DNA from: Lachnospiraceae bacterium
Lineage (GTDB): Bacteria > Bacillota > Clostridia > Lachnospirales > Lachnospiraceae
Length of the DNA: 64,000 bases
Direction of reading: 5' to 3'
Assembly: GCA_017624235.1 (NCBI GenBank)
Contig: JAGANL010000051.1
Span: 106,913 to 170,912 of the forward strand
Under the pieces are notes generated by a model. The model did no database searches. It was not told the origin of the DNA and saw only the letters and a program-made list of their open reading frames with translations. Shown here in pieces: positions 5,711-23,319 of the stretch. Each line of letters opens with the position of its first letter. Positions within the stretch are counted from its first letter, which is position 1. The position numbers and the translations under genes were made by a program.

Positions 5711-6029
5711 AGAAGACAAATGGCAATTCAGCCCACGTCCTGCCGCCCTCCCACTTAGACTCCACACCACTGCCAAAATTTCGAGACTTACAGAAGGACT
5801 GTGTGTTTGCTTAATGGAGCATTCAAAACCGTAGGGAGAAATCGGCAAGGATGCCGATTTCAGGCGTCCCTGCGCACGAATGCGCATGGATGCCGGCCCG
5901 GCCGGGTATTCAAACTTTTCTGCTCCATTTAGAAAACACCAGTACATCTGTCGTCTCGAAATTTTGGCAATGGCGCGGAGACTAAGTGGGAGGGCGGCAG
6001 GGCGTGGGCTGAATTGCCATTTGTCTTCT
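5711..6029. repeat. long nested inverted-repeat element with structured head, copy 1
   Basis: Two 77-bp arms (5711-5787 and 5953-6029) are reverse complements with only five mismatches. Inside them pairing continues imperfectly into AATGGAGC (5813-5820) with GCTCCATT (5922-5929). That stem encloses two hairpins: AAATCGGCA/TGCCGATTT (5839-5847, 5852-5860) and GGCGTCC/GGATGCC with inner TGCGC/GCGCA (5863-5894). The element fills the gap between the GH127 stop and the two-receiver regulator start. Small ORFs across it are by-products of the palindrome. It is not a simple terminator, as there is no T-tract and it is far too long. A second copy of the head is at 23105-23222. Confidence 0.85.
5813..5929. 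ncRNA. candidate structured RNA head (copy 1)
   Basis: A 117-nt core with three nested helices: a closing stem, a 9-bp hairpin with a four-base loop AGGA, and a longer interrupted hairpin followed by GGCCCG. The same three helices occur at 23105-23222 with paired substitutions. That argues for selection on folding. Orientation is undecided, because both strands fold equally in the core. No family is assigned. Confidence 0.5.
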
Positions 6030-6054
6030 TTTCTATTCCAGCTCTATTCCTGTT

Positions 6055-7995
6055 CTAAGCCTCTCTCATCCACACAAGCATCTCACCCTTGCCTCTGTTA
6101 TTCCACATGCAGTACGGAATCGCCTTAAAGGAATCGGCTTTATAGACCGGAGCTGCGTCCGTATACAGTTCATCTCCGGTATCGGAATAATCGATTCTGG
6201 TGCCGAACAGCTTTGCACATGCTGTTCCGCCAAACAGCTCACCGTCATACTCCTCCTGAATCGGCATCTTTGCATCTATTATAATAGAAGAAAGATATTT
6301 TCCGTTGTCGGCCTCCTCCAGACAGTATACCCAGGGTCCCTTCATCAGGCTCACTTTGCCGATATTATCACGGACTCTCGGATTACACCGTACAAAACGG
6401 AAGGAAACATCAAGTGAAATCTGAAGCTCATCTCCCTTCTTCCATTCACGCTTCAGATATATATATCCCTTTTCCAACGTATATTCTGCCTGCTTTCCAT
6501 TGACCATAACGGTCACTTCTTTGGAAAATGCCGGTTTACGGACAGCAATTGTAAATTCTGCCCTGCTCCTTTCAGGCTCTACCACAATCTTGATATCTCC
6601 ATTTAGAGGATAATCTGCTGTTAAGGTGAACGCCGCTTTTCCAGCTTCCAGCTCCGTTTCTATCCGGCTGGCAATAAACAGGTTCACGTAAAGTGTATCC
6701 GCATCCACCGCATAAGTATAATCTCCCATGGATGCCAGGGTACGGGCAATATTCGGAGGACAGCAGGCTACACCGAACCAGAGCTGCCTTTCCGTCTTTA
6801 CGTGACGCATGGTCGGATTCTTCTCTGCAATTTCCGGTACGACCTCCAGCGGATTCACATAAAAGAAATGCTTTCCATCCATTGCAATGCCGGAGAGCAG
6901 CGTATTATAGAGCGCCTGCTCCACAATATCCATATACTTGCCATCCTTTGTGATTTGGAACATGCGGTTTGAAAACATGGCCAGTCCTACCGTCGCACAG
7001 GATTCGGAATAATTAGTATTGTTCGGCAGATCATAATCCGTCGTAAAGCGCTCACCATAGGAAGCAGAGCCTATACTGCCGGTGATATACATTCTCTTTT
7101 TCACAATGTTGGTCCACAAGACGTCACACTGCTTTAACAGCTCCTCATCCTCATATTCATAAGCCAGATCCGCCATGGCACTGTACAGATACACCGCCCG
7201 TACTGCGTGTCCTTCTGCTGTAGTCTGATCCTTGACAGGCATATGTGCCTGCGCATAATCCCAGTCAAAATCCCTGAATTCCGGAAAAATGAAATCCTGA
7301 TTTTTCACGCAATCCTCACTGGCAAAATAGCATGGTCTTGTACCTCTTGCACGCACAAAGTAATTGGCCAACTCCAGATATCTTCTCTCATGAGTCACAC
7401 GATACAGCTTCACCAGAGCCAGCTCTGCCTCAGGATGTCCCGGATAACCATGCAGCTTCCCGTTTTCACAGCCGAACACCTCACACATATCATCGGCCAT
7501 GCGGCAGACCACCTTCAAAAACTTATCCTTGCCTGTCGCCTGATAATAGGCTACTGCTGCTTCAATCATATGCCCAGCCGTATACAGCTCATGTCCCTCA
7601 AACAGATTCGACCACCTTGGTTTGCCTGTAATCGTAAAATAAGTATTCAGATAGCCGTCCTCACACTGTGCTCCTGCAATCAAATCCACCGCCGCATCCG
7701 CCAGGGCTTCCAGCTTCGGGTTTCTCTTTTTGGCCACACAATAGGCTACCGCTTCCAACCATTTGGCAACATCGGTATCCTGAAATACCATCCCCTTATG
7801 TTCACCCTCCTGATAGCCGCAGGCAATCTTGAAATTCTGAATGCAGTAGCTCTTTTCCGCCCCCTCTACGCTGTCATTAATCAGATCCCATTGGAACGGC
7901 AGAATCACATCCTCCACCAGATTGATGTACCTATTCCAGAAACCGTCATCGATCCGAATCCTATTCAGTTCTACATTTTGCAATTTTGTCTCCAT
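6055..7995 (-). CDS. GH127 beta-L-arabinofuranosidase
   Basis: 646 residues, the usual length for GH127 (formerly DUF1680). The N-terminal two thirds form an alpha/alpha barrel (FQDTDVAKWLEAVAY, GHELYTAGHMIEAAVAYY) and the rest is beta sandwich. The zinc site and nucleophile expected from the Bifidobacterium HypBA1 enzyme are present with the right spacing: E331 and C333 in NYSESCATVG, and C411/C412 in FGVACCPPN. No signal peptide, so it is cytoplasmic and would act on imported arabino-oligosaccharides. It follows the LacI-type gene by 48 bp and is probably co-transcribed with it. The exact linkage specificity cannot be read from the sequence. Confidence 0.9.
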   Translation of the reverse strand: METKLQNVELNRIRIDDGFWNRYINLVEDVILPFQWDLINDSVEGAEKSYCIQNFKIACGYQEGEHKGMVFQDTDVAKWLEAVAYCVAKKRNPKLEALADAAVDLIAGAQCEDGYLNTYFTITGKPRWSNLFEGHELYTAGHMIEAAVAYYQATGKDKFLKVVCRMADDMCEVFGCENGKLHGYPGHPEAELALVKLYRVTHERRYLELANYFVRARGTRPCYFASEDCVKNQDFIFPEFRDFDWDYAQAHMPVKDQTTAEGHAVRAVYLYSAMADLAYEYEDEELLKQCDVLWTNIVKKRMYITGSIGSASYGERFTTDYDLPNNTNYSESCATVGLAMFSNRMFQITKDGKYMDIVEQALYNTLLSGIAMDGKHFFYVNPLEVVPEIAEKNPTMRHVKTERQLWFGVACCPPNIARTLASMGDYTYAVDADTLYVNLFIASRIETELEAGKAAFTLTADYPLNGDIKIVVEPERSRAEFTIAVRKPAFSKEVTVMVNGKQAEYTLEKGYIYLKREWKKGDELQISLDVSFRFVRCNPRVRDNIGKVSLMKGPWVYCLEEADNGKYLSSIIIDAKMPIQEEYDGELFGGTACAKLFGTRIDYSDTGDELYTDAAPVYKADSFKAIPYCMWNNRGKGEMLVWMREA

Positions 7996-8043
7996 TTTTC
8001 CTCCATCCCAGGGTGTTTGTCTCCTTACACCTCTGCCTTTCTT

Positions 8044-9081
8044 TTATCGATATCCATCTGCTCTGACCGACGCCCCCGGAATAATCCGACAGGGCAGTAT
8101 GATGTCCTGATTTTCCTCTTCTCTACCGCTGATCTGTTCTGTTAAAAGCTCCATGGCATGATATCCCATAGCCTGCAGCGGACGTTCCACCGTCACAAGC
8201 TCCGGAGAAATATGCTGTGCAATCGCGGCATGATCAAATCCGGTCACCGCCACATCCTCCGGTATTTTCAGCCCAAGCTCCGTTGCCGCATCGTACACAC
8301 CAACCGCCATTTCATCATTCATAGCCATGATAATCTGCGGAAAATCCTTCCGGTCAAGAAGCTTTCCTGCGGTTTCCCTGCCTTCCTTATAATTCCAGCC
8401 TCCACATAAAACATTCTCCGGTGGTACCTCGATCCCCGCCTCCTTCATGGCTCTCTGAAAGCCCTTTAAACGCAGGGCTGCGGGCTCAGAGCCTTCCAAT
8501 CCTCCGATGACCCCAAACCGTCTGTATCCCTTTTTCAGCATAAGTCCTGTCAGTTGATAAAGTACCTCTTCATTATCATAGCGTACCGAAGAGCCTCTGC
8601 CCATCGGATAGCAGTAGCAGTATACGACAGGCTTTCCGATATCACTGATCATCTCAGGAAGCATCCGGTCATGCATCCCCACATAAATAATACCGTCTAC
8701 CTGCATACCTGCGAGCATATCCACTTCCCGGTCAATGTCCTCCTGATAATTGGAAATATCTTCAAAACGGGATGCAATCTTGCTCATCAGCCTCAGATTG
8801 CTCAGAATGGTATGATATCCCTGCCTTTCAGCAATCTCATTGATACCGTCGATGATTTGAGGGGTATGCCAGACCGTAATGTCCTCCACCAGAATACCAA
8901 TCAGTCTGGATTCATTGGTTCTGAGACTCTTGGCCAGCATATTGGAGCGGTAGCCGGTCTCCCGGATGATCCTCTCTACCTTTTCTCTGGTCTTATCACT
9001 AATCGGCGCCGTTCCGTTCAGAACATACGAAACCGTAGCAACCGAAACGCCCGCCATAGACGCAATTTCCTTTAGGGTCAA
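8044..9081 (-). CDS. LacI-family transcriptional regulator
   Basis: 345 residues. The N-terminal helix-turn-helix is MTLKEIASMAGVSVATVSYV followed by the hinge helix region LNGTAPISDKTREKV. The C-terminal part is a periplasmic-binding-protein-like sugar sensor (about 60-340: GILVEDITVWHTPQIIDGI, VDGIIYVG, PEDVAVTGFDHAAIA). The gene directly precedes the GH127 gene, so it likely controls that gene and itself in response to an arabinose-containing sugar; the ligand is an inference from context. A 16-bp perfect palindrome lies 28 bp upstream of the start. Confidence 0.9.
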   Translation of the reverse strand: MTLKEIASMAGVSVATVSYVLNGTAPISDKTREKVERIIRETGYRSNMLAKSLRTNESRLIGILVEDITVWHTPQIIDGINEIAERQGYHTILSNLRLMSKIASRFEDISNYQEDIDREVDMLAGMQVDGIIYVGMHDRMLPEMISDIGKPVVYCYCYPMGRGSSVRYDNEEVLYQLTGLMLKKGYRRFGVIGGLEGSEPAALRLKGFQRAMKEAGIEVPPENVLCGGWNYKEGRETAGKLLDRKDFPQIIMAMNDEMAVGVYDAATELGLKIPEDVAVTGFDHAAIAQHISPELVTVERPLQAMGYHAMELLTEQISGREEENQDIILPCRIIPGASVRADGYR

Positions 9082-9108
9082 TCCTTTTTCGCCCCTTCCT
9101 GAAGGTTT

Positions 9109-9124
9109 ATTTAAACGTTTAAAT
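9109..9124. promoter_or_regulatory. LacI-type operator palindrome
   Basis: ATTTAAACGTTTAAAT is a perfect 16-bp palindrome with the central CG step typical of LacI/GalR operators. It lies 28 bp upstream of the LacI-type gene start, so autoregulation of the regulator-GH127 operon is likely. Binding itself is inferred. Confidence 0.65.
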
Positions 9125-9209
9125 TGATAGTTAAATCATAGACGTATCCGGGAGATTTGTCAATATAATTTGATGTCAGGAAATATGAAATCCATAGATA
9201 AACAGAAAA

Positions 9210-9242
9210 ATGGATGAGTATTGTTTTCCTCTACTCATCCAT
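9210..9242 (-). terminator. rho-independent terminator of lysA
   Basis: On the minus strand ATGGATGAGTA pairs with TACTCATCCAT around an 11-nt loop, followed directly by a T-run. It lies 18 bp beyond the lysA stop codon. Confidence 0.85.
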
Positions 9243-9260
9243 CAAATTCAATACCACATA

Positions 9261-10520
9261 TCACTGTTTCGGGAAATGCTCCAAATCCAGCGTCGCAAAA
9301 TAATCTTCCTTCGTCTCTGCCCGGCGGATTAACTGGGTGCTTCCATCCTCCTTGAGCAGTACTTCTGCGGAACGAAGCTTTCCGTTATAGTTATACCCCA
9401 TGGAAAAACCATGTGCACCGGTATCATGAATCACAAGGTAATCTCCGATATCGATTTTCGGAAGGGAGCGCTGTACTGCAAATTTATCACAATTCTCACA
9501 CAAGCCACCCGTTACATCGTATACATGATCACGCGGCTCCTTTTCTTTTCCAAGTACCGTAATATGATGATAAGCCCCGTAAATAGCCGGCCGCATCAGG
9601 TTGGCTGCACAGGCATCCACACCGATATATTCACGGTAAATATGCTTTTCATGGATTGCCTTCGTCACCAGACAGCCATACGGTGCCAGCATAAAGCGTC
9701 CAAGCTCCGTAAAGATTGCAAGATCGTCCATTCCTTCCGGCACAAGAATCTCTTCATAGGCTTTCCGCACACCCTCACCGATTACCATAATATCATTCGG
9801 CTTGTCCTCCGGCTTATAAGGTATTCCGACACCTCCGGAAAGATTGATGAAGGCTATATGCACTCCGAGCTCTCTCTTCATTTCCACAGCCAGCTTAAAT
9901 AAGATGCGGGCCAGCTTCGGATAATATTCTTCCGTAATCGTATTGCTTGCTAAAAATGCATGAATGCCGAAATGCTTTACTCCCTTCGCTTTCATATACT
10001 TGAAGGCATCCTTCATCTGATCCTTGGTCATGCCGTATTTGGCCTCATTCGGGGTATCCATGATCTGATTATGAATCGAAAAATTGCCTCCCGGATTATA
10101 GCGGCAGCACATCGTTTCATGGAACGGTGCCAGCTTTTCATAAAATTTCAGATGTGTAATATCATCAAAATTGATAATAGCATCCAGGTCGGAAGCCAGC
10201 TTAAAATCTTCCTCCGGTGTCACATTGGAAGAAAACATGATCTCATGTCCTTTAAACCCGACTTTGTCAGACAGATATAATTCCGTATAGGAGGAACAGT
10301 CCACACCGATGCCCTCTTCCTTTAAAATCTGCATCAGATACGGATTCGGTGTTGCCTTGACTGCAAAATATTCTTTAAAACCCTTATTCCATGCAAACGC
10401 CTGCTTTAATCTTCTGGCATTTTCCCGGATTCCCTTTTCATCATATAAATGAAACGGCGTCGGATATTTCTGTGCCATTTCCTGTACCTGCTCCAGTGTT
10501 ACAAATGGTTTCTTTTCCAT
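9261..10520 (-). CDS. lysA: diaminopimelate decarboxylase
   Basis: 419 residues, the normal length for this fold-type III PLP enzyme, which converts meso-diaminopimelate to lysine. The PLP lysine is in YFAVKATPNP (about residue 53). The glycine-rich phosphate loop is NLSGGVGIPY, the substrate-binding Cys lies in GLCENCDKF, and the C-terminal barrel contains HGFSMGYNYNGKLR. The CENCD variant differs from the common CESGD but keeps Cys, Glu and Asp. Transcribed alone from a TTGACA-type promoter and closed by a strong terminator; divergent from the TrmB-type gene. A related PLP decarboxylase of this fold is a less likely alternative. Confidence 0.9.
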   Translation of the reverse strand: MEKKPFVTLEQVQEMAQKYPTPFHLYDEKGIRENARRLKQAFAWNKGFKEYFAVKATPNPYLMQILKEEGIGVDCSSYTELYLSDKVGFKGHEIMFSSNVTPEEDFKLASDLDAIINFDDITHLKFYEKLAPFHETMCCRYNPGGNFSIHNQIMDTPNEAKYGMTKDQMKDAFKYMKAKGVKHFGIHAFLASNTITEEYYPKLARILFKLAVEMKRELGVHIAFINLSGGVGIPYKPEDKPNDIMVIGEGVRKAYEEILVPEGMDDLAIFTELGRFMLAPYGCLVTKAIHEKHIYREYIGVDACAANLMRPAIYGAYHHITVLGKEKEPRDHVYDVTGGLCENCDKFAVQRSLPKIDIGDYLVIHDTGAHGFSMGYNYNGKLRSAEVLLKEDGSTQLIRRAETKEDYFATLDLEHFPKQ

Positions 10521-10565
10521 CTCTCCTGCGTCCTTTCTACATTGCTTTTTATCCTCTGCATTGTG

Positions 10566-10594
10566 ACTTTAACATACTGTCGTTTCCGTGTCAA
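10566..10594 (-). promoter_or_regulatory. sigma-A promoter of lysA
   Basis: Reading leftward, TTGACA (10594-10589) and TAAAGT (10571-10566) are separated by 17 bp and lie about 46 bp before the lysA start. The -35 is perfect and the -10 is weaker. Confidence 0.65.
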
Positions 10595-10734
10595 TGGGAA
10601 AACTAAAAATATTAGTATTATTTTGGAACACTATTATCTTTTCAAATCTGAAATTCTATGTTACACTGGCAATAAGCATTCAGAAAGCAGCATTTTACAA
10701 GCCTTGATTCTGTTTTCAGGAAAGGAACACATCT

Positions 10735-11430
10735 ATGGAACTGATTGAAAAACTGATTCATTTCGGACTGAGCCGTCCGGAAGCCAACATCTATATTACC
10801 CTGATCAAGCACGGTGCCCTGACCGGCTACGAGGTTGCAAAATTTACCGGCCTCTCCCGTTCCAATACGTATACCTCCCTTGCCGGACTCGTGGACAAAG
10901 GGGCCGCCTATGTGCTGGAGGAACAGGTGACCAAATATATTCCTGTAGATTTTGAAGAATTTTCCCGCAATTATATCAATGCCTTGCAGGACTGTAAAAA
11001 GGAAATCCTGTCTGCCCTCCCGGCTCCTGTCCGTCTTACGGAGGGCTACATCACGATACGAGGCAGCAGGCAGATACTGGACAAGCTGAAGAATATGCTG
11101 CTGTCTGCCGAGTACCGCATCTATGCCTCGTTGCCTCAAAACATTCTGGCTCAGACAGGGGATATCTTCCCCTCATTATCTGCCCAGGGTAAAAAGATCG
11201 TACTGCTCACCGATGAAAACTACGAGCTTTTAAACGGGACCGTATATCTGACCCCTACTCCGGCAACCCAAATACGGCTGATCGTAGATTCTGAACGGAT
11301 CCTGACCGGAGAACTGCTGCCGGACCGGGAAGATGCTTCCACCTGCCTGTATTCGGAAAACCAGAATCTGGTCAATGTATTTAAGGAAATGCTCCAGAAC
11401 GAAATAAAACTCCTGACCCTTTCTTCATAA
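10735..11430 (+). CDS. TrmB-family transcriptional regulator
   Basis: 231 residues. The N-terminal winged helix (FGLSRPEANIYITLIKHGALTGYEVAKFTGLSRSNTYTSLAGLVDKG, residues about 10-56) is typical of TrmB/HTH_24 proteins. A helical linker follows, then a PLD-like C-terminal domain (about 105-225) that often binds sugars in this family. It is divergent from lysA across a 214-bp gap, so it might act there, but no operator is obvious. Its last codons and stop lie within the stem-loop that terminates it. The ligand is unknown. Confidence 0.75.
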   Translation: MELIEKLIHFGLSRPEANIYITLIKHGALTGYEVAKFTGLSRSNTYTSLAGLVDKGAAYVLEEQVTKYIPVDFEEFSRNYINALQDCKKEILSALPAPVRLTEGYITIRGSRQILDKLKNMLLSAEYRIYASLPQNILAQTGDIFPSLSAQGKKIVLLTDENYELLNGTVYLTPTPATQIRLIVDSERILTGELLPDREDASTCLYSENQNLVNVFKEMLQNEIKLLTLSS

Positions 11431-11443
11431 GGTCAGGAGTTTC
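11410..11443 (+). terminator. terminator overlapping the end of the TrmB-type gene
   Basis: CTCCTGACC pairs with GGTCAGGAG around the stop codon, followed by TTTCTCC. The left arm encodes the last residues of the protein. Confidence 0.7.
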
Positions 11444-11459
11444 TCCTATATCCTCTATT

Positions 11460-11537
11460 TCATTCTTCTTTCAGCACCTTGACTGCAGTACCATAAGCAA
11501 TGACCATACCTGCACCTGTCATCAGACCCATCTCACT
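11460..11537 (-). pseudogene. C-terminal remnant of a YbjQ/UPF0145-like protein
   Basis: Directly after the GGDEF gene's TAA, the same frame continues for 25 codons (SEMGLMTGAGMVIAYGTA, then VKVLKEE) to a TGA. The pattern MxxGAGMVIAYGTAV is the conserved C-terminal strand of the YbjQ (heavy-metal-binding domain) family. The first three quarters of such a gene are absent, so this looks like a deletion scar. A stand-alone 23-residue peptide from the ATG at 11531 is possible but unlikely. The family call rests on a short match. Confidence 0.45.
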
Positions 11538-12596
11538 TTACTTTTTTGCCTTCTTTTCCAATTTATTCTGATACATATTCCGGTCCGCCTTATCAAACAA
11601 AACCCGGAAAGAGCAATCCGGCAGCTCTGTGGATAATGCCCAACCGCACGCATAGCTCACCTCCATGAAGTCACCTCCTCCATGATGGAGCCGGTTAAAC
11701 TCCTGCACATCCTCCTGCAGCTTCCTTAGAATCTCTTTCACCTCCTGTCTGGAAGAATCATAAATGACTGCCATAAATTCATCTCCGCCATATCTTCCCA
11801 CAAAATTCGGAGCAGGCACTGCATTCCGAAGCAGTCTTGCAAAGTTTACAATCAGCTGATCTCCAACCGAATGCCCTAAAGTATCATTTGCCACCTTCAA
11901 ATTATTCAAATCAAATACCACACAGGCAATCGGTTTCTGCATCAATTCCAAATCAGAAAAGAATTCTTCACACCGCCCCTTGTTGGGCAGGCCTGTATGC
12001 TGATCTGTAAATGCCTTTTGCTCCAGCTGATAGTTCCGGTGTCTCATTCTTACAGCTTCAAAAGAACGGCCCAACATCAGCAGGAGTAAAACCATCATAT
12101 CCCCAGCTGTAACCATTTCCAGATAACGGATAACCGTTGCAATGGATTCCGAATACTTTTCCGCCGCTGAGACAGTCTTATCCGCCATTCGAAAATACTG
12201 TTCACTCATAGCAACAATGTTTGTAGATTCATACCCATATTGGCGAACACGATAAATTTCAGATTTCAGCTGCTGCCAATATTTCATTTGCGCATCCAAA
12301 TCACTCTGATACACTTCATCCTTCAGGCTCACCAGATTATATTTTCCCGACTCATATTTCAGCCCGCTTAAAATTTCATCCAGATAAACGATAAGCTCAT
12401 CATTTTCCTGACCCGCGATTTCCAGCTTAATCTCCCGTTGCGTTGCACCTCTTACAAGTCCTGCATAATTAATGACCCTTGCAGTTCCCTGCAGACAATT
12501 GATTTGGAAAATCATAGATGCCACCAAAGCCATCAGAACAATAATCAGTATACTCTGAACGACTGTTACGAATGTTCTTACTCTTTTCGTTGTCAT
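11538..12596 (-). CDS. membrane-bound GGDEF diguanylate cyclase
   Basis: About 352 residues. Two membrane helices (about 10-30 and 160-180) flank an extracytoplasmic helical sensor region of about 130 residues. A cytoplasmic GGDEF domain (about 190-352) follows, with an intact GRYGGDEFMAVIY active site, FTDQHTGLPNKGRCEEF at its start and VVFDLNNLKVAND. It should make cyclic di-GMP. No RxxD inhibitory site is evident just before GGDEF. The ATG at 12596 is preferred because GGGAG lies 8-9 nt upstream. Its neighbours are metabolic genes and give no clue to the signal. Confidence 0.9.
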   Translation of the reverse strand: MTTKRVRTFVTVVQSILIIVLMALVASMIFQINCLQGTARVINYAGLVRGATQREIKLEIAGQENDELIVYLDEILSGLKYESGKYNLVSLKDEVYQSDLDAQMKYWQQLKSEIYRVRQYGYESTNIVAMSEQYFRMADKTVSAAEKYSESIATVIRYLEMVTAGDMMVLLLLMLGRSFEAVRMRHRNYQLEQKAFTDQHTGLPNKGRCEEFFSDLELMQKPIACVVFDLNNLKVANDTLGHSVGDQLIVNFARLLRNAVPAPNFVGRYGGDEFMAVIYDSSRQEVKEILRKLQEDVQEFNRLHHGGGDFMEVSYACGWALSTELPDCSFRVLFDKADRNMYQNKLEKKAKK

Positions 12597-12635
12597 GAAC
12601 AATTCTCCCGCTTTTATTTGATCTGCCGCATCGGT

Positions 12636-13817
12636 CTATTCATAAGCCATTTCAAATATTTTCAAAATATCATCATATGCCAGAGCCTTAAAACCAATCA
12701 ACGTTCTGGTCTTATTTCTGGAACAATCCAGTGCAAGCTTTCCAAGAGCTTCCTTCTGCACTCCCAAGGTCTTTAGTCTGACCGGCATTCCGATAGAACG
12801 ATAGAACTGCTCCTGCCTGTTGATTGCTTCTTCTACAGTCCTTTCCGGATGTTCAAAGTCAATCTCCAAATTCCAAACATTGTGCGCATACTGCAGCCAT
12901 CTGTTCAGATTGGCTGAATAGACATACCGCGCCCAGCTGCACCAGATTGCTGCCAGACCGGCACCATGCGCAATTTCAGGATACATCCCGGAAACCTCAT
13001 GTTCCAATTGGTGCACCACAAGCTGAAATTCCCTGCCGCATTGTGTAAGTCCGTTGTGCGCAAGAGAGGAAGCCCACATCATATTGGCACGTGCCTCATA
13101 GTTTTGAGGATTTTCCAGACAATCCACTCCGGCCTTCATCACATTTTTTATGACCGCCTCGGCAATCGCATCCGTCAAATAAGTATCCTCACCCGGACAA
13201 AAATATCTTTCGATCGTGTGCATTGCAATATCCACGATTCCGCAGGCTGTCTGATAGGGACTCACGGTATAAGTAAGTTCCGGATTTTCGATTGCAAAAT
13301 TCATTCTGTTACTGCTGCAGCCGTAGCCCCTCTTTTCTCCTGTTTCACTGTTGGTAATCACGCAGGAATTAGACATTTCCGAACCTGCTGCAGCAAGCGT
13401 CAGAATGGCGCCCTTCTTCAAAGTCTTTTCCGGTACACATTTTCCCAAAGAAAAATCCCAAACATCCACATCCGGATTCGCTGCACCATTCGCAATATCC
13501 TTTGCAGAATCCATGACCGAACCGCCGCCGACTGCCAGGACGAAATCCACACCTTCACGGATACACAACGCAATACCTTCTCTTACCAGCTGAAGCTCTG
13601 GATTTGCCACAACGCCTCCCAGCTCTACATAACTTATATTCTCCTCTTCCAGACATTGCTTCACCCGGTCCAGTAATCCGCTTTCCTTTGCCGATTTTCC
13701 TCCATAATGAATCAAAACCTTTTGAGGCTGATATTCTGCTATAATCTTTCCAATCTTATACTCTTCGTCTTTTCCAAAATATACCCTGGTAGGTGTTTCA
13801 TAAATGAAATTGTTCAT
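12636..13817 (-). CDS. iron-containing alcohol dehydrogenase (butanol dehydrogenase-like)
   Basis: 393 residues, group III metal-dependent ADH. The NAD(P)-binding loop is AVGGGSVMDSAKDIA. The metal ligands are in GIVDIAMHTIERYF (Asp and His), LVHQLEHEVSG and IAHGAGLAAIWCSW. It is closest in pattern to the BdhA/YqhD branch that reduces butyraldehyde or other aldehydes. The start has AAGGAG 8 nt upstream. It lies 39 bp before the GGDEF gene; co-transcription is possible. The true substrate cannot be decided. Confidence 0.88.
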   Translation of the reverse strand: MNNFIYETPTRVYFGKDEEYKIGKIIAEYQPQKVLIHYGGKSAKESGLLDRVKQCLEEENISYVELGGVVANPELQLVREGIALCIREGVDFVLAVGGGSVMDSAKDIANGAANPDVDVWDFSLGKCVPEKTLKKGAILTLAAAGSEMSNSCVITNSETGEKRGYGCSSNRMNFAIENPELTYTVSPYQTACGIVDIAMHTIERYFCPGEDTYLTDAIAEAVIKNVMKAGVDCLENPQNYEARANMMWASSLAHNGLTQCGREFQLVVHQLEHEVSGMYPEIAHGAGLAAIWCSWARYVYSANLNRWLQYAHNVWNLEIDFEHPERTVEEAINRQEQFYRSIGMPVRLKTLGVQKEALGKLALDCSRNKTRTLIGFKALAYDDILKIFEMAYE

Positions 13818-13913
13818 TTCTAATCTCCTTCGTAAAAAATTTTATAACAGTACAAAAATTTCGGCTGAAATATGTTAAATGCTGAAAGAAAATGATAGAA
13901 CACAAACAAAAAT

Positions 13914-13941
13914 AGGAAGTACCTTTCTACGGATACTTCCT
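13914..13941 (-). terminator. terminator after yqeY
   Basis: On the minus strand AGGAAGTA pairs with TACTTCCT around a small loop, followed by ATTTTTGTTTG. It lies 27 bp beyond the yqeY stop. Confidence 0.8.
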
Positions 13942-13967
13942 ACATGCGGTCAAATTCCGAAAAGGGA

Positions 13968-14414
13968 CTATTGTAGCATCTCTCCGACAATCTTATTGAC
14001 TAAAGCACCGTCAGCCTTGCCCTTTACCCGGGGCATCAGCTCCTTCATGACCTTCCCTTTGTCTCTGGCACTCGGCTGCTCAATTCCAAGACTGCTTAAT
14101 ACCTCTTTGATCACATCACGAATTGCTTCCTCGCTCATTTCCTCCGGGGCAAATTCCTTCAACACGGCAATTCTCTTCTCACAGGCTTCCTTAATATCCA
14201 CACGGTCTGCCGGAGCTAGCTCCAGGGTTTCCTTCGTCTGCTTGATCTCCTTTTTAATGACCTCAGCCTCTTCTGCCTCTGTCAGATCCTCTCTTTTATC
14301 AATCGCCCTGTTTTTCAGTGCTGCAAGCAGCATGGACAGCGTCTCTTTTCTGTCCTTGTCCTTATTTTTCATTGCCGCTACCATCTCAGCACGGATGACA
14401 TCAATCATGCTCAT
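13968..14414 (-). CDS. yqeY: GatB/YqeY domain protein
   Basis: 148 residues, all helical, as expected for YqeY. The opening SMIDVIRAEMVAAMKNKDKD and LSMLLAALKNRAID, and the tail KEVMKELMPRVKGKADG type motif (GKVMKELMPRVKGKADGALV), match the family, which resembles the tRNA-binding tail of GatB. The molecular role is unsettled. It follows the flagellin-like gene by 52 bp and is closed by a terminator. Confidence 0.9.
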   Translation of the reverse strand: MSMIDVIRAEMVAAMKNKDKDRKETLSMLLAALKNRAIDKREDLTEAEEAEVIKKEIKQTKETLELAPADRVDIKEACEKRIAVLKEFAPEEMSEEAIRDVIKEVLSSLGIEQPSARDKGKVMKELMPRVKGKADGALVNKIVGEMLQ

Positions 14415-14465
14415 TTCTATTCTGTCCTTTCCTGTCCGATTCTTTTATTTTACATCCTCCGGTCC

Positions 14466-15221: not shown

Positions 15222-15369
15222 ACCATGCACCTCCTTCTATGGTAAATATGTCCTTAGTTATATATATTATAGCCGTTTTTTTCCAATTTCTCAATATGAA
15301 TCAAAAAAGTTGTCAACGAAACAGTGCAGCCCGGAGAGGGCGGAGGCTGGTGCCGGCTGAACTGCCCCT

Positions 15370-16347: not shown

Positions 16348-16439
16348 GGTGTTCCTTCCTTCACGTTTCCCATCTTCTCATTCCTTATCCTTTAGGATAT
16401 ACCAATCCGCCCCTTTGTGCAATCCTGCCGGACAGCATT

Positions 16440-18758
16440 TCATTCCTCCCTACACTTCCTCTTTTCCGGCATTTTTTTACCGTACAGCGTCCGGCCTTTC
16501 GACAGCCACACCTTTCCCCTCTCTGCATTCACTTCACAGCTGCCCTCCCATGCTGTCACAAAAATACGGCTGCCGCTCTCCTTCGTCCGCTTTATCATGT
16601 CTTTTCCCGGATGTCCATAGGAATTATTCTCTCCACAGGAAATCAAAGTCAATATCGGCTTCAGTTCCTGCAAAAAAGCTTCGGTGGTAGAACCATTGGA
16701 GCCGTGATGTGCAGCCTTTAGAATCAGCGGATTCGCCGTATGACATATATCCGGATTTAATCTCCGCTGCCGCTCAAGCTCCTGTAATACCGTTTCTTCT
16801 TTGTCTCCCGGCAGATCTCCGGTAAATAGAAACTCGACTCCTTCACTACACAGCCAGAGCACCATCGAAGTGCTGTTAGCATCCTCCATAACCTCTCCTT
16901 CCACCGGATGAAGGCAGATCAGCATGACATCCTTCTCACGGATGCTGTCCCCGGCCACCATGCGGCACACAACCGGCCTTTTGCCGGACTGGGAAAAAGC
17001 AGCATCCACGATTTGGGCATATGCTGTCTCTCCTTCCCTGTCCTGTAACTGCGCGGTCTCAGGCAGCCCCAGCACCCTACAGCGTATCTCTCCATCCTTT
17101 AAGAGCTGCACGATGCCGTTTACATGATCTTCATCCGTATGGCTAAGCAGAATATAGTCCAGTTCCCGGATACCGTAATATTTCAACGCAGGAAGAATCT
17201 GCCAGCTTCCTGTATCCTTCTCAGAACTGCTGCCTCCGTCCACCAGAATTTCCGTATTCCCACTGCGTATCAGAAAGCAATCCCCCTGCCCCACATCCAG
17301 CATGGTGACCTGTAACCCTTCCCGTCCGGTCTTTGCTGTCACCACAGCTAACGCCCCCATAAGAAAGAGAAGGAGCATTCCTCCCGAAAGCTGTTTCCGA
17401 TACCGTTTTGCAAGAATGACCGCAGCAGTCAACATCATATAATATACTACGATCTGCTCCGTGCGCACATGTCCAATGGTCCACCGGCTGCCCGGCAGCA
17501 TCAGGGACAGCTTACCGGCCTTTTCATAAATCATCAAAATAACCTGACAAACGCTGCCCGGTATACGGGCAAGAGGCTGACACAATCCATACAAAACAGG
17601 AATCAGCAGTCCTGCCGGAAGCAGCATCGCGCTAAGTGGAATCACTGCCAGATTGAGAAGCAGAGAATACGGCGCCGCTTCATAAAAAAATTGTATCAGT
17701 ACAGGCAGGGTTGCCAAAAAGACTCCAAGTCCCCCTGCCACCGCCTTTGGAATATGCTCCTGCAGCATCGGTGTGAGCAGCGCCATTCCCATGACCGCGC
17801 CAAAGGATAATAAGAAACCGCTGTTCCACAGATAAAAGGGCTGTTCCACCAGGATTCCCACCGCTGCCAAAGAAAGTGCGGTGAGAAGATCGTAGCTTCT
17901 TCCCAAAAGTCTGGCCAGAAGGCTTAGGGAAAACATGAAAACAGCCCGCACTGTAGAGGTGCCCTGTCCGGTCATCCTGCCATAACAGTACATGATCCCT
18001 ATGCAAAACAAAACTGAAACTGCATGGGGAAGCGGTGTCCGTCTGCACAGGCGGTACATTCCCATACCTAAAAAGGTTATATGAAGACCGGAAATACAGA
18101 GGATATGGGAGATAGAAGCTTCCTGATACAGCTTTTTGGTGTCCTGGTCCAGCTCCTTTTTCTCCCCTAACAGCATGGCCTTTAACACCGAAGCATCCGC
18201 TTCGCCCAACACCGCCTCAAAGCTCTGTCCCAAATATGCCCGCAGCCTTTCCAGAGCTTCTCCGATTTTGTCATAATCCAGGCTTTCCTCCAGCACCCGC
18301 GCCTTCTGTATACGGAAGGAATATCCTGCAATCCGATAATACTCCGCCTGATCAAACCCTCCCGGCACCCTGGCTCTTTGAAAGGGCTTTAATTCTCCCT
18401 CCACGGTAACGATGCTGCCCATTTTCGGCACATCTTTATCTGCATGCACATCGTTATCTGCATGCACATCGTTATCTGCATGTTTACCCGGCTGCAGACG
18501 GCAGACGACTCCCTCCGTATGTTCTGCTTTCCAATTGACGTTCTGGAATTGTACGGATGAAATATCCTTCAGATAAAGTATCTGTTCTTCTCCATAGAAG
18601 ACCGAACTTTCCGTTTCCTTACGGCACACACGACCGGTGACCGTGACTATTTCTCCGTCTGCACCGTCATAAAACGGTGCAGGCGTCACCCATATTCCCT
18701 GTAATACTGCAATGACTGCTGCAAATACCAGGCAGACGGCACAAACCGGCCTGCGCAT
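16440..18758 (-). CDS. comEC: ComEC/Rec2 DNA-uptake channel
   Basis: 772 residues. An N-terminal hydrophobic segment and DUF4131-like OB region (about 20-160) are followed by about ten membrane helices (Competence domain, about 190-490; ISHILCISGLHITFLGMGMY). A C-terminal metallo-beta-lactamase-like domain follows (about 500-760; VTMLDVGQGDCFLIR, LLSHTDEDHVNGI, KAAHHGSNGST). It should conduct single-stranded DNA across the membrane, with the C-terminal domain a likely nuclease. GGGGGAG precedes the start. A hexapeptide repeat lies in the OB region. holA follows. Confidence 0.93.
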   Translation of the reverse strand: MRRPVCAVCLVFAAVIAVLQGIWVTPAPFYDGADGEIVTVTGRVCRKETESSVFYGEEQILYLKDISSVQFQNVNWKAEHTEGVVCRLQPGKHADNDVHADNDVHADKDVPKMGSIVTVEGELKPFQRARVPGGFDQAEYYRIAGYSFRIQKARVLEESLDYDKIGEALERLRAYLGQSFEAVLGEADASVLKAMLLGEKKELDQDTKKLYQEASISHILCISGLHITFLGMGMYRLCRRTPLPHAVSVLFCIGIMYCYGRMTGQGTSTVRAVFMFSLSLLARLLGRSYDLLTALSLAAVGILVEQPFYLWNSGFLLSFGAVMGMALLTPMLQEHIPKAVAGGLGVFLATLPVLIQFFYEAAPYSLLLNLAVIPLSAMLLPAGLLIPVLYGLCQPLARIPGSVCQVILMIYEKAGKLSLMLPGSRWTIGHVRTEQIVVYYMMLTAAVILAKRYRKQLSGGMLLLFLMGALAVVTAKTGREGLQVTMLDVGQGDCFLIRSGNTEILVDGGSSSEKDTGSWQILPALKYYGIRELDYILLSHTDEDHVNGIVQLLKDGEIRCRVLGLPETAQLQDREGETAYAQIVDAAFSQSGKRPVVCRMVAGDSIREKDVMLICLHPVEGEVMEDANSTSMVLWLCSEGVEFLFTGDLPGDKEETVLQELERQRRLNPDICHTANPLILKAAHHGSNGSTTEAFLQELKPILTLISCGENNSYGHPGKDMIKRTKESGSRIFVTAWEGSCEVNAERGKVWLSKGRTLYGKKMPEKRKCREE
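18430..18484. repeat. 18-bp tandem repeat inside comEC
   Basis: The unit ATCTGCATGCACATCGTT occurs twice exactly (18438-18455, 18456-18473), with diverged partial units on both sides. It encodes HADNDV-HADNDV-HADKDV in frame in the N-terminal OB-like region of ComEC. The unit length is a multiple of three, so slippage would change the protein length without a frameshift. Confidence 0.85.
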
Positions 18759-18848
18759 ACGTACTCCCCCTCTGCTTTCTTTGCAGTCCCCTTCTTTTTT
18801 ACCCCTTATCCTTCCGAATCGTTCACTTACCGACTATCCGTTCCCCAT

Positions 18849-19778
18849 CTATAAGCTCCCTACGATCTCCAGATTTCTTTCAAAAATATTTGTCAGGCTG
18901 ATTTTTTCCCGATACATCACATCCGTATTGCCATTGATGGACAACTGTACCTTATTGACATTAGGCAACTCTACCAGTGAATTAACGATTGAGAAAATCG
19001 TCACCTCGCTGGATACCTGATACGGCTGCACCAGAAAATTTTCATCCAGATTTACATAGCATATGCCATCCTTCACCGTCACACTGACTACCTTCGTGTT
19101 AGGATTGATGGTCGGATAGATTTCTGCATTGTTCGGCCCGTGAATCAGTTCCTCCACCACCAGCTTTTCCATGGATATATTACTGCTGTACACCTTGGGT
19201 CTCACCGCTTCAATCAGTTTTGTTCCGCTCTCATCCGCAAAATAGAGCCGGAGCTTTGTCTTCTCATAGGCGTTGATCTCATCCCCGGCATTGTCAATAA
19301 ACATGTCCGCAGACATCACTCCGACCGGATTTCCTGCCGCATCCGTCAGATTTTCCTCTCGAATCTGCATGGAGACATAATCGACTCCCGGTATCTGTGT
19401 CAGCGTCCGTACAATGGCTGCTCTTGTCAATACCTCCGTCGTAGCCGAAAGCTCCTTATAATGTTCATCAAATTTCAGGATAAGCTGACCCTCCTCCAGA
19501 CCATATTCCATCACGTGCACACTGCCGCCGATAGCCGGCTTCAAGGTCTGATCCTTCGGCTGCTCTGACAGCCTGACTAACAGTTCATCCACTGCCGCCG
19601 CAGGCTCATCTGCCTGCAGTCGATATTCCTCCATGACTACCTTCGTTTCCGACATGTTCAGATAATACAGCTCCACCGGTACTCCGGTTTCCTCCGGCTT
19701 CTGCTTTCCGCAGCCGACCGTCAGAATGCCAATCCAAAGAACTGCTGCCAGAATCAAAAAGCTTCTAATTCTTTTCAT
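18849..19778 (-). CDS. GerMN-domain lipoprotein (GerM-like)
   Basis: 309 residues. The signal peptide ends in a lipobox (LTVGCGK, Cys23), so it should be a membrane lipoprotein. Two GerMN-type repeats follow: about 35-150 (VELYYLNMSETKVVME, LTQIPGVDYVSMQI) and about 175-300 (LRLYFADESGTKLIEAV, VNLDENFLV, LVELPNVNKVQLSING). In Bacillus, GerM acts in sporulation and germination. It lies 32 bp downstream of the sensor kinase and is probably in the same transcript. A YycH/LpqB-like accessory role to the kinase is an alternative. Confidence 0.8.
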   Translation of the reverse strand: MKRIRSFLILAAVLWIGILTVGCGKQKPEETGVPVELYYLNMSETKVVMEEYRLQADEPAAAVDELLVRLSEQPKDQTLKPAIGGSVHVMEYGLEEGQLILKFDEHYKELSATTEVLTRAAIVRTLTQIPGVDYVSMQIREENLTDAAGNPVGVMSADMFIDNAGDEINAYEKTKLRLYFADESGTKLIEAVRPKVYSSNISMEKLVVEELIHGPNNAEIYPTINPNTKVVSVTVKDGICYVNLDENFLVQPYQVSSEVTIFSIVNSLVELPNVNKVQLSINGNTDVMYREKISLTNIFERNLEIVGSL

Positions 19779-19810
19779 ATTGATTCTCTTACGCCTTTCC
19801 CTCTGTCCTG

Positions 19811-21289
19811 CTATACGATATACATAAGCGGCATCTTGACCAAAAAGGTCGTTCCCTCTCCCTCGATGCTCTCTGCCTTAATCGATCCTCTGTGCATCAG
19901 AATGGCATTTCTGGTAATGGCAAGCCCAAGACCGGTTCCACCAATCTCCCGGGAATGGGATTTATCCACCCGGTAAAACCGCTCATAGATATGCTCCAAA
20001 GAATCCTCCGGTATACCGATTCCGGAATCCGATATCTCTACCGTAAAGAACTGATGATCCGCGTCCAAAAGCACCTTGACCCAGCCATGCGGCTTATTGT
20101 ATTTGATTGCATTTTCCACCAGATTGGAAATGGCCAGCGTAAACTTCACTTCATCAATCTCCGCTGTCACCGGACGGACACTTTCAAAAACAACCTCCAC
20201 ATCCTGCTTGCGCGCAATGGGGCGCAGCCTTTTCAGAATGAGCTCCATCAGCTCATTGATATTCACGGAGGTCACATTCAGCTCTGCCACCTTCTTGTCC
20301 ATTTTCACCAGAGATAACAGGTCTGTGATAATCTTATTTTCCCGGTCAATCTCATCCGTAATATCCACCATAAACTCCCGGTACAGCTCCACCGGTGCAT
20401 CCGGCTGCTGCAGCAGGGAATCGGCCAGTACCTTGATGGAGGTAATTGGCGTCTTCAGCTCATGCGACACATTGGATACAAATTCCTGCCTGGAATCATC
20501 CAACACCTTCATCCTGCCAAGCAGCTGATTAAACGCATCCACAATATGCTCTGTTTCCAGATAATCCGGCACGGATATCTGCTCATCGGTAAAGCCTGCC
20601 TTGACTTCATTGATTGCCTGCGTAATACGCTCAAACGGTCCCAGCAGGAGCTTGGACAGCACGCCTGCCAGTCCGATAATGACAATCAGCATAATAAGCT
20701 CTATAATCAGTGCCTTGCGATTCAGAATTTCCTGGGTAGTCACAATGGAATCTGTCGACACACTGGTCAGCATCACGCCGACTACCTCTTCCGGTGTCTT
20801 TCCATTCACATCCTGTACTGCCCTTCCCGCTATGATCGGAGTGGTCATCTCTATGTACCCGTTCACCCTGTCGTGATTGGACATTCCGGTTCCCTGAAAG
20901 CACTTCATGACCTCTTCGGAAATGATGATCTTTCCTTCACTGATTCCATACGTATCCTTGATGATTTTAAAGCTCCGGTCAATAATCAGGACACGACCGT
21001 CATACAGGTTGGAAAGCTGATCCAGTTCGGCATTGATCACTTCCGATGAGGTATCCTGAAGATAATTATACGTAATCAGATGATTTGCAAGAATCTGAAG
21101 CTGATTCTGCACATCCGACTTTCTCACATCAATCGCACGGGTTTCATAATTGTCCAGAATCCCATGCTTGATAATAATACTCGGCACGATGCCGACCAAC
21201 AGCATAAGCAGGAAAATACGCAGCTTCAGACTCCGCAGAAATTTAATCCTGCCCAGAAGATTTTTCATTCTTCCCATCTTTATAACCAT
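19811..21289 (-). CDS. HAMP-domain sensor histidine kinase (VicK/WalK-like)
   Basis: 492 residues. Membrane helices at about 22-42 and 195-215 flank an extracellular sensor. A HAMP linker follows (FERITQAINEVKAGFTDEQI), then HisKA with FVSNVSHELKTPITSIKVL and HATPase with DSGIGIPEDSLEHIYERFYR and GGTGLGLAITRNAI. All catalytic boxes are present. It lies 20 bp after its response regulator gene. The PAS domain of true WalK is absent, so this may be a different OmpR-type system, although the ERFYRVDKSHSRE block is typical of the WalK/PhoR class. Confidence 0.9.
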   Translation of the reverse strand: MVIKMGRMKNLLGRIKFLRSLKLRIFLLMLLVGIVPSIIIKHGILDNYETRAIDVRKSDVQNQLQILANHLITYNYLQDTSSEVINAELDQLSNLYDGRVLIIDRSFKIIKDTYGISEGKIIISEEVMKCFQGTGMSNHDRVNGYIEMTTPIIAGRAVQDVNGKTPEEVVGVMLTSVSTDSIVTTQEILNRKALIIELIMLIVIIGLAGVLSKLLLGPFERITQAINEVKAGFTDEQISVPDYLETEHIVDAFNQLLGRMKVLDDSRQEFVSNVSHELKTPITSIKVLADSLLQQPDAPVELYREFMVDITDEIDRENKIITDLLSLVKMDKKVAELNVTSVNINELMELILKRLRPIARKQDVEVVFESVRPVTAEIDEVKFTLAISNLVENAIKYNKPHGWVKVLLDADHQFFTVEISDSGIGIPEDSLEHIYERFYRVDKSHSREIGGTGLGLAITRNAILMHRGSIKAESIEGEGTTFLVKMPLMYIV

Positions 21290-21309
21290 ACCCTTTTCGC
21301 ACTACTCAA

Positions 21310-21999
21310 TTAATGCTTAAAGTAATATCCGACTCCCCATTTGGTATGTACAAATCTCGGCTCGCTCGGATTGGCTTCAATCTTTTCACGCAGCCTCCTG
21401 ATATGCACATCCACTGTCCGCACATCTCCCGGATAATCCGCACCCCATACGATTTTCAGCAGACTCTCCCTGCTGTATACCTTATTCGGATTTAAGATCA
21501 AAAGCTCCAGCACATCAAACTCCTTGGCTGTCAGGTTGATTTCCTTTCCATTGATATAGACGCGCCGTCCCTCGCAATCCAGCTTCATCTCACCGCTCTC
21601 TACTACATGAGCTTTGCCGCTTTCTTCCTTCTTCTTTCCGGTTCTGCGCATAATGGCCTTGATTCTGGCTTTAACCTCCAGAATATTGAAGGGCTTGGTA
21701 ATGTAATCATCGGCTCCGTATTCCAGCCCCAGAATCTTATCCATATCGTCGCCCTTTGCAGTCAGCATAATGATCGGTACACTGGAAAATTCCCGAATCT
21801 GCTGGCAGACCTCAAAACCTGTCAGCTTCGGCAGCATCACATCCAGAAGAATCATGTCATATTCTCCCTCTCTTGCCATAGACAGCGCCTCTTCACCGTC
21901 ATACGCACAATCTACCTCCATACCGTCCTGCTCCAGACTAAAACGGATTCCTTTCACAATCAGTTTTTCATCATCCACTACCAAAACCTTTTTGCCCAT
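21310..21999 (-). CDS. OmpR-family response regulator
   Basis: 229 residues. The receiver has VLVVDDEKLIVKGIRFSL, phosphoacceptor Asp in MILLDVMLPKLTG and Lys in DDYITKPFN. The C-terminal winged helix (about 130-229) has INLTAKEFDVLELLILNPNK and VDVHIRRLREKIE. It begins the operon regulator-kinase-GerMN lipoprotein. Target genes are not visible. Confidence 0.92.
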   Translation of the reverse strand: MGKKVLVVDDEKLIVKGIRFSLEQDGMEVDCAYDGEEALSMAREGEYDMILLDVMLPKLTGFEVCQQIREFSSVPIIMLTAKGDDMDKILGLEYGADDYITKPFNILEVKARIKAIMRRTGKKKEESGKAHVVESGEMKLDCEGRRVYINGKEINLTAKEFDVLELLILNPNKVYSRESLLKIVWGADYPGDVRTVDVHIRRLREKIEANPSEPRFVHTKWGVGYYFKH

Positions 22000-22023
22000 G
22001 TTATGATCTGTGCCCTTCCTTCC

Positions 22024-22839
22024 CTATTCAACCGTAATGTCATCCCTTATTTTAGCGAATGCTCCGCTTTTTATGCCTTCCACATTCATAATGTCTTCTA
22101 TCTTTGCAAAATTTCCATGCTCACTTCTATACCGGATAATGCTTTTTGCCCGGCTTTCTCCGATACCGCTTAGCGTACACAGCTCTTCTTCCGATGCCGT
22201 ATTGATGTTCACAAGCTGCTTTCCCGCCAAAGCAGAGGTGCCTGTCCCTTTTGCCTGACTCGCTCTCTCAGACTGCATACCGACTGTCACATACTCCTGC
22301 CCGGCTTCCTTTTCCGCTTCCTGTCTGGAAGGAATCTGTATTTTCATACCATCCTCCACAAGCTGAGCCTGATTGACCGTATCCCGACTGGCTGCTTCCG
22401 ACAATCCGCCTGCCTTTTCAATCACCTGATAGACCCGATCCCCGGACCGCATGCGATACACACCAGGTTCCGCCACCTCTCCGCAAATATGTACATAAAT
22501 CCATTCCGACTGCGTCCGGGGCAAATCCCCTGTTTCCATTTGCTCCTGTCCGTCCCTGTCGGACATCCTGGCTGCTGTATCTACTCCTCGATTATCTATC
22601 CCTGAATCGCCTGCAGCTGTGCCTTGTTCCGTCGTAAAAGCTTCTGTTTCCGTTTCCTGACTATCTCCGACATCCCTATCCGCCCACTCTTCTGCGGACA
22701 TGATCCTATCCTCCTGCACCTGCAGTCCATCCGTCAGTTCATAACCTGTCTTCCTGCTGCATCCAGCCATCAGCAAAGCTGCCATAGCTCCTACTGCGGC
22801 CAACACCAATCCCTTGCTACTCTTCTGTTTTTCCCTCAT
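22024..22839 (-). CDS. comEA: ComEA-like lipoprotein (SLBB plus helix-hairpin-helix)
   Basis: About 271 residues. The signal peptide ends in a lipobox (ALLMAGCSRK). A low-complexity acidic linker (about 35-105) leads to an SLBB domain (WIYVHICGEVAEPGVYRM, DRVYQVIEKAGG) and C-terminal tandem helix-hairpin-helix motifs (VNINTASEEELCTLSGIG, FAKIEDIMNVEGI). ComEA binds incoming double-stranded DNA at the membrane. A true lipobox is less usual than a plain membrane anchor in this family. The ATG at 22839 puts the signal peptide at the N-terminus. comEC lies 3 kb downstream on the same strand. Confidence 0.85.
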   Translation of the reverse strand: MREKQKSSKGLVLAAVGAMAALLMAGCSRKTGYELTDGLQVQEDRIMSAEEWADRDVGDSQETETEAFTTEQGTAAGDSGIDNRGVDTAARMSDRDGQEQMETGDLPRTQSEWIYVHICGEVAEPGVYRMRSGDRVYQVIEKAGGLSEAASRDTVNQAQLVEDGMKIQIPSRQEAEKEAGQEYVTVGMQSERASQAKGTGTSALAGKQLVNINTASEEELCTLSGIGESRAKSIIRYRSEHGNFAKIEDIMNVEGIKSGAFAKIRDDITVE

Positions 22840-23005
22840 AACTATACATAGCTCCCTTATCGTACGGAATACCATCTCGACTGTCGTCTCGATGTGGCTT
22901 TCGCCTTATTGTACCATAAAGCTGCTATATGCTGACTTCTTCATTGTATATAAATTCACGGATGGTTGCAAGTGGAAAAATGAAATATCGGCATCACAAA
23001 ATTTA

Positions 23006-23319
23006 CTGCCTGCAACCTGTCCCTCCCCGCCTGCACCTGCAACCCGTCGCCCCGGTCCTGGCCCCTGCTGAAGAAAAGACTACAGCCGTTTTGAGCATTT
23101 TCTTAATAGAGCCTTTCAATGACCCAGGGAAAAATCGGCACGGATGCCGATTTTAGGATTCCTGTGCATGGAAGCACATGGAATCCGGCCCGTCCTCATG
23201 TCTGCAACCTGCCTGCTCTATTTAGAAAATCCCAAAACGGATGTGTCTTTTCTTCAGCAGGGGCCAGGATCTGGGCGACGGGTTGCAGGTGCAGGTGGGG
23301 AGGGACAGGTTGCAGGCAG
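23006..23319. repeat. long nested inverted-repeat element with structured head, copy 2
   Basis: Two 75-bp arms (23006-23080 and 23245-23319) are reverse complements with three mismatches. They share no sequence with the arms of the copy at 5711-6029. The head between them has the same plan: AATAGAGC/GCTCTATT (23105-23112, 23215-23222), AAAATCGGCA/TGCCGATTTT (23131-23140, 23145-23154), and GGATTCC/GGAATCC with inner TGTGC/GCACA (23156-23186). The element lies between the YdcZ-type gene's stop (15 bp away) and comEA. The rest of the gap, 22840-23005, shows nothing I can name. Confidence 0.85.
23105..23222. ncRNA. candidate structured RNA head (copy 2)
   Basis: A 118-nt core closing with AATAGAGC/GCTCTATT, where copy 1 has AATGGAGC/GCTCCATT (G-C replaced by A-T). 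The third helix has TGTGC/GCACA where copy 1 has TGCGC/GCGCA. The loop side sequences TTCAA, AGGGA and GGCCCG are shared. Function is unknown. Confidence 0.5.

Follow-up and report, generated by a model that had tools for sequence, protein, structure and literature searches.

The window, a stretch of 64,000 nucleotides from the genome of a Lachnospiraceae bacterium, contains two fold-back elements, all parts of which are given here on the forward strand: a head flanked by two long arms that pair with one another. In element 1, the arms (5702-5787 and 5953-6038) align as an inverted repeat of 86 nt with 91% identity; the outermost part of the left arm, approximately 5702-5720, lies outside the usual end of the element, as judged by eye. 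A reverse-strand gene (6055-7995) for a GH127 beta-L-arabinofuranosidase has its stop codon 16 nt beyond the right arm. In element 2, the arms (23006-23080 and 23245-23319) form an inverted repeat of 75 nt with 96% identity; at a distance of 14 nt, the right arm is followed by the stop codon that ends another reverse-strand gene (23334-23852), for a YdcZ-type exporter. The first-pass annotation had already recognized both near-perfect inverted repeats; its arm length for element 2 is retained, that for element 1 (77) is corrected.

The heads, at 5789-5952 and 23080-23246, both match the Rfam family RF01731 (TwoAYGGAY) over the full model (positions 1-168), with 78.9 and 81 bits for a gathering threshold of 43. 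This match is beyond chance, and the heads share with the family its two hairpins on a basal stem. Read from the sequence, hairpin 1 of element 1 (5838-5861) has a 9-bp stem and the loop AAGGAT (5847-5852), which deviates from AYGGAY at the second base; hairpin 2 (5863-5894) has the loop ACGAAT (5876-5881), without GGA. In element 2, the loop of hairpin 1 (23131-23154), ACGGAT at 23140-23145, fits the motif, and that of hairpin 2 (23156-23186), ATGGAA at 23168-23173, deviates at the last base. GGA is hence present in three of the four loops. The three head helices with paired changes described earlier are all found, with the sequences then given (positions counted by hand in both heads): AATGGAGC/GCTCCATT in element 1 versus AATAGAGC/GCTCTATT in element 2, TGCGC/GCGCA versus TGTGC/GCACA, and GGCGTCC/GGATGCC, with one G.T pair, versus GGATTCC/GGAATCC.

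No named element with this design was known to the first-pass annotation, which had itself listed a hit to a known Rfam family as counting against its view; such a hit is what was found. TwoAYGGAY has been known since 2010, though it is unexplained. Its Rfam entry is typed as a Cis-reg RNA, and it is tabulated by Weinberg 2010 (PMC2864571) as probably RNA and not cis-regulatory. The passages on the motif in PMC2864571 and PMC4333381 make no mention of the long arms, of how many copies a genome has, of arms changing in concert or of presence/absence. New here are the comparison of arm identity within and between copies, the paired change in situ, the presence/absence and the weak wobble excess.

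The genome of the window, 80% complete, has 37 matches to RF01731 (36 above the cut-off), and two further genomes have 47 and 31. At least 65 of the 397 genomes of the family are carriers, 63 of them above the cut-off. The expectation of a structured unit that recurs, its stems covarying and its arms differing from locus to locus, is borne out by many copies in this genome and its relatives. One partial match (L037) was excluded from all counts after the initial steps, and a locus without left flank (L026) from the arm counts. The relatives' set comprises 51 loci, with two heads cut at contig ends (L043, L050) left out and head orientations taken as the strands given by the family search; a further head set keeps 47 of the 51, the heads of G035 and G024 being removed.

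The arms are 93% identical within one copy and 48% between copies, compared with 76% between copies for the heads. The two arms of the window do look dissimilar, as had been noted, but they do not have nothing in common: in a profile built from the other copies, 32 of 35 arms of this genome match, including both of the window (16.9 bits, reached by 0 of 200 shuffles, and 9.2 bits, reached by 1 of 200). Most arms are homologous, if strongly diverged, and the arms change fast. The head is therefore not placed on arbitrary fold-backs, and the earlier proposal of a mobile head landing on, or making, unrelated local fold-backs is largely refuted and now very improbable, the more so as copies in one relative (G067) share their arm ends. 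Three of the 35 arms without a profile match remain in its favor, as do about seven of 35 palindromes, element 1 included, that by eye reach into the flank beyond where the element usually stops, so that the making of fold-backs from local sequence was half right. Altogether, the earlier observation is partly confirmed and its interpretation partly supported.

Arm lengths vary between copies, yet within a copy they are equal in 30 of 35 cases and differ by one base in the other five. At one orthologous site (L258/L293), 26 of 27 arm pairs stay paired in each species although 12 of the 27 differ; ten of these changed on both sides, five being of transversion type, a result that rests, like the presence/absence below, on one genus pair. 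The sole unpaired position of each species is G.T, compatible with wobble pairing, which counts against copying of one half from the other in the DNA. A second candidate pair of orthologues (L004/L041) was rejected, its alignment being limited to the heads. An inverted duplication as the source of paired heads in G111 was unsupported as well (similarity of 0.62 between partners, 0.68 for other copies). It seems to be at the DNA level that the halves of a copy are held in agreement; their match by itself may therefore not demonstrate an RNA function.

A structured RNA is expected to tolerate G.U more readily than A.C mismatches, as in the controls: 51 G.U against 8 A.C for TPP and 270 against 20 for RNase P (from 28 of the 50 and 30 of the 41 matches listed, namely those with assigned loci or the best scores). 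G.U is hardly above A.C in the arms (39 versus 28 and 80 versus 77 in two sets) and in most head sets (14/6 and 29/25; 17/21 with one head per genome); the hairpin stems gave 2/9 and 13/12. The G067 heads (35 of 47 copies used for the wobble and fold tests) show the opposite, 47 G.U versus 4 A.C, which counts against the DNA-copying reading; 32 of the 47 G.U come from two seemingly misregistered columns, without which 15 versus 4 are left. Against TPP alone, neither the heads of the window's genome (Fisher test, 0.17) nor those of G067 (0.38) differ significantly, nor do the G067 heads against RNase P (0.77). A fold test without G.U gave 7 versus 1 for the TPP control, too few events for the test to stand by itself, and 4 versus 7 for the G067 heads. 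The argument from compensation to RNA is weak here, because wobble pairs are hardly or not at all preferred in the arms and the stems of the hairpins; the G067 heads are the exception in its favor.

The little wobble preference in the arms also fits a DNA palindrome kept by selection instead of copying, in which a protein such as a transposase would bind a cruciform or single-strand hairpin and the halves must match. The conserved loops and ends agree with such binding. This is nevertheless improbable, as the joint change of length in both arms is hard to reach by single mutations and the arm sequence is nearly free between copies.

Conserved loops bear also on another reading, by which TwoAYGGAY would be a CsrA-binding RNA, perhaps mobile too: two GGA loops on a Y-shaped head would titrate or recruit a CsrA dimer, and the arms would serve as RNase III entry or insulation. 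A published motif match (PMC4333381) speaks in its favor. In the window's genome, GGA is found in hairpin 1 of 36 of 36 heads and in hairpin 2 of 32 of 36, elsewhere in 34 of 47 and 26 of 42, as counted by an automatic finder that sometimes chooses the wrong hairpin; some loops are of ACGAT type, without GGA. The orthologues L258/L293 keep GGA while their stems differ. Such retention, complete for hairpin 1 in the window's genome, is not explained by the upkeep of a palindrome alone. In the basal helix, G.U outnumbers A.C in three of four sets (12/5, 26/17 and 13/3), the fourth, with a single head from each genome, giving 14/14. Both points also count against the DNA-copying reading. In the genome of the window, a CsrA gene lies upstream of one that resembles flagellin. 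CsrA occurs in 62 of 65 carriers versus 148 of 332 non-carriers (Fisher test, 4e-16; 2 of the 148 lie under the Pfam cut-off), but flagellin tracks the element equally well (64 of 65 versus 149 of 332; three lists compared by hand, assuming the same 397 genomes, whose handles agree). Relative to the adjoining gene the orientation is mixed, with 18 sense and 27 antisense among the 45 facing gene ends that lie less than 40 nt away, overlaps included. Together with the weak wobble signal in arms and hairpin stems and the persistence of hairpins without head, this makes the CsrA-binding RNA rather unlikely. An association with a particular neighbor gene was also rejected: no Pfam family recurs in more than 2 of the 91 flanking ORFs scanned (the relatives' part of 156 listed, one duplicate and the window genome's own omitted).

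Presence/absence at orthologous sites, through either gain or loss, is shown between two congeneric species. For 46 of the 47 copies in G067, both flanks were sought in G382; they lie on one stretch in eight cases, and at seven of these the flanks are 28-245 bp apart with no RF01731 match there in the full family search. A shared end, TTAGGGTGTCAAAAC, occurs with at most one mismatch 29 and 17 times in G067 and G382 (46 in total; reversed control, 0). Hairpin derivatives without head exist. Reading 260 nt inward at 12 of the 46 end matches revealed neither an autonomous partner nor a separate transposon end. For window element 2, no clean empty site was found in the congener G001, where the interval between the orthologues is taken up by other sequence that includes coding genes; the sides of element 1 map to separate contigs of G001.

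TwoAYGGAY elements resemble MITEs and similar bacterial repeats (NEMIS/Correia, RUP) in being short and non-coding, in having terminal inverted repeats whose conserved ends recur among copies, in the large number of intergenic copies and in presence/absence. They differ in that neither a transposase partner nor a clean duplication of the target was found, and in that head and ends are conserved whereas the intervening arms can vary freely if pairing holds. REP/BIME elements, mobilised by RAYTs, are likewise palindromic and intergenic; some TwoAYGGAY elements lie just past a stop codon, others in divergent pairs (G111). Identity with REP/RAYT was rejected, since PF01797, the Y1 transposase family that includes the RAYTs, is absent from four of eight carriers among 61 genomes (G000, G001, G023 and G032), two of these four being 99-100% complete. 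Neither this Y1 search nor the inward reading at the 12 loci yielded a transposase partner for the element.

With moderate confidence, each structure is best explained as a single copy of a dispersed DNA fold-back of MITE-like type, ~300 bp long, with TwoAYGGAY at its center and halves recopied from each other. The demonstrated base is the many copies per genome, the presence/absence, the ends common to two species, the head-less derivatives, the lack of a recurrent neighbor among the scanned genes, and the concerted arm change, including in situ at one orthologous site. Template switching, during replication or hairpin repair, may recopy the halves from one another, which would make and keep Watson-Crick stems with little selection at the RNA level. 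Some transposase would spread the copies in trans, and a protein would bind at the GGA loops and the junction bases, which are conserved. Monttinen and Loytynoja (PMC8794818) describe template switching that creates and restores perfect stems via DNA copying; RNA genes were studied there, whereas a dispersed repeat is proposed here. The broader claim, that the covariation of this curated RNA family was written by template switching between the halves of a fold-back DNA element, is put forward only tentatively.

Covariation counts as strong support for a functional RNA. Should DNA copying be what maintains these stems, the Rfam family needs to be re-read, the simple check of wobble against A.C mismatches would help to screen other candidates, and TwoAYGGAY would exemplify a whole class of false positives in covariation-based RNA discovery. 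If it is a CsrA sponge instead, the flagellated bacteria of the family would carry dozens of mobile CsrA-binding sites. Under either reading, a family that has gone without explanation since 2010 can be put to the test.

The two elements of the window, at about 5702-6038 (element 1) and 23006-23319 (element 2), each carry a head of the Rfam family TwoAYGGAY (RF01731) on the forward strand, at 5789-5952 and 23080-23246, respectively. On re-reading of the sequence, the heads and helices described in the first-pass annotation were confirmed as written, and the near-perfect inverted repeats it had seen as arms were found around both: 86 nt at 91% in element 1, 75 nt at 96% in element 2. The adjoining genes all lie on the strand opposite to the heads; they encode a GH127 glycosidase and a response regulator beside element 1, and a YdcZ-type exporter and an SLBB/helix-hairpin-helix protein beside element 2. 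The window also contains a T-box leader (RF00230, 46712-46961, reverse strand), barely over its cut-off (93.2 bits vs. 93).

The element is multi-copy. In the window's genome, 2.33 Mb in size and 80% complete, 37 matches were counted (36 above cut-off); it is one of 8 carriers among 61 genomes. Across the family, at least 65 of 397 genomes are carriers (63 above cut-off), a floor because at most six candidates were scored per genome; the ten carriers searched in full hold 2 to 47 copies. No Pfam family recurs in more than two of the 91 flanking ORFs scanned. With simple ORF calls, the arm lies 0-20 nt from the gene in 27 of 89 facing gene ends, and the orientation relative to the adjoining gene is mixed.

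Inverted arms of 48-86 nt surround every one of the 35 copies of the window's genome with both flanks available. Their length varies among copies, while the two arms of one copy are equal in 30 cases and differ by one base in 5. The first-pass annotation had seen nothing in common between the arms of the two elements, but the aligned arms of the copies have a faint consensus with a shared outer end near TAACAGTTCAGCC, and 32 of 35 left arms are recognized by a profile built without the tested copy (against 200 shuffles, 30 beat all, 2 beat 199, and 3 gave no match). The arms are related to each other and evolve in concert. Over a fixed 60 nt, arm identity is 93% within a copy and 48% between copies (ungapped shuffles, 27.5%), and heads are 76% identical between copies, 92% at most; hence no observed copy is recent, yet the arms remain paired. 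One head in the relative G035 (L055, 1329-1487) is flanked by a far longer inverted repeat than elsewhere, ~226 nt with 24 mismatches.

Change in place is visible at one orthologous site, where the flanks of element L258 (genome G382) match those of L293 (G067) on either side. Of 27 inner arm pairs compared in these two elements, 26 are paired in each species, the sole unpaired position being a G.T; 12 pairs differ between the species, 10 of them on both sides and 5 of transversion type. Both hairpins of these elements retain GGA and differ in the stems. At another intergenic site, occupied in both G085 (L308) and G394 (L314), the elements share an odd stem mismatch and their heads are oppositely oriented, possibly through inversion at the site. 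Beside the L308 element, at ~1290-1420, another palindromic insertion was seen by eye (CGCAGGTTT ... AACCTGCG).

Selected RNA helices tolerate G.U pairs but not A.C mismatches, as in the TPP (G.U 51 vs. A.C 8) and RNase P controls (270 vs. 20) from the window's genome and its relatives. The arms gave 39 vs. 28 in the window's genome and 80 vs. 77 in relatives, and for the stems of the hairpins the counts were 2 vs. 9 and 13 vs. 12; the basal helix leans to G.U in three of its four sets, at 12/5, 26/17 and 13/3, but not in the fourth (14/14). For arms and hairpins, the comparison therefore weighs against selection as RNA, which may still act on the basal helix. Heads gave 14 vs. 6 in the window's genome (Fisher vs. 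RNase P, 0.003; vs. TPP, 0.17), 29 vs. 25 in 47 heads of relatives (1e-11 and 0.0002) and 17 vs. 21 with one head per genome. The 35 heads of G067, on the contrary, count against a DNA reading: at 47 vs. 4 they resemble RNase P (0.77). Two columns, apparently misregistered between two hairpin-2 types, supply 32 of these 47 G.U, and without them the ratio is still 15 vs. 4. The earlier argument from compensation to RNA is weak here, given how little wobble preference arms and hairpin stems show; the G067 heads are an exception.

As for mobility, 8 of 46 G067 copies have both flanks on one compared stretch of G382 (~1 Mb of its 2.8 Mb was covered). One of these sites is occupied in G382; in the other seven the flanks lie 28-245 bp apart, without a match in the full family search of that genome, a presence/absence pattern that may reflect either gain or loss. 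The end TTAGGGTGTCAAAAC (at most one mismatch) occurs 29 and 17 times in the two genomes and never in a reversed control, and head-less hairpins exist (L396, L400). Reading of 12 loci revealed no partner transposase, and 4 of the 8 carriers among the 61 genomes lack Y1 transposases. Genome G111 has nine close divergent head pairs (L315-L323), of which seven, by eye, join two distinct head subtypes, a pattern that would fit the copying of a unit with two heads.

A CsrA-binding role for TwoAYGGAY has been proposed from motif matches (PMC4333381). Among the 397 family genomes, CsrA is present in 62/65 carriers vs. 148/332 non-carriers and flagellin in 64/65 vs. 149/332, so that motility explains the carrier pattern as well as CsrA does, on raw genome counts uncorrected for phylogeny. 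The element is nearly confined to flagellin-bearing genomes. The sole CsrA match of the window's genome (L239:2526-2900, contig C18; 124 aa, 57 bits) is longer and divergent, and a flagellin-like ORF follows directly downstream of it. A second, lower-scoring CsrA of ~100-130 aa occurs in some relatives.

Nothing on the element appeared among the literature matches listed for MITEs in Lachnospiraceae, CsrA with the TwoAYGGAY family, miniature inverted repeats in Clostridia or palindromic Rfam elements. The conserved loops and ends may be read by a protein. Template switching is reported to make and restore stems (PMC8794818), and a hairpin-prone DNA repeat would promote it. In about seven copies, the palindrome extends by eye into the flank. 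Template switching would account for such extensions, as well as for the concerted, length-matched and wobble-poor change of these elements.
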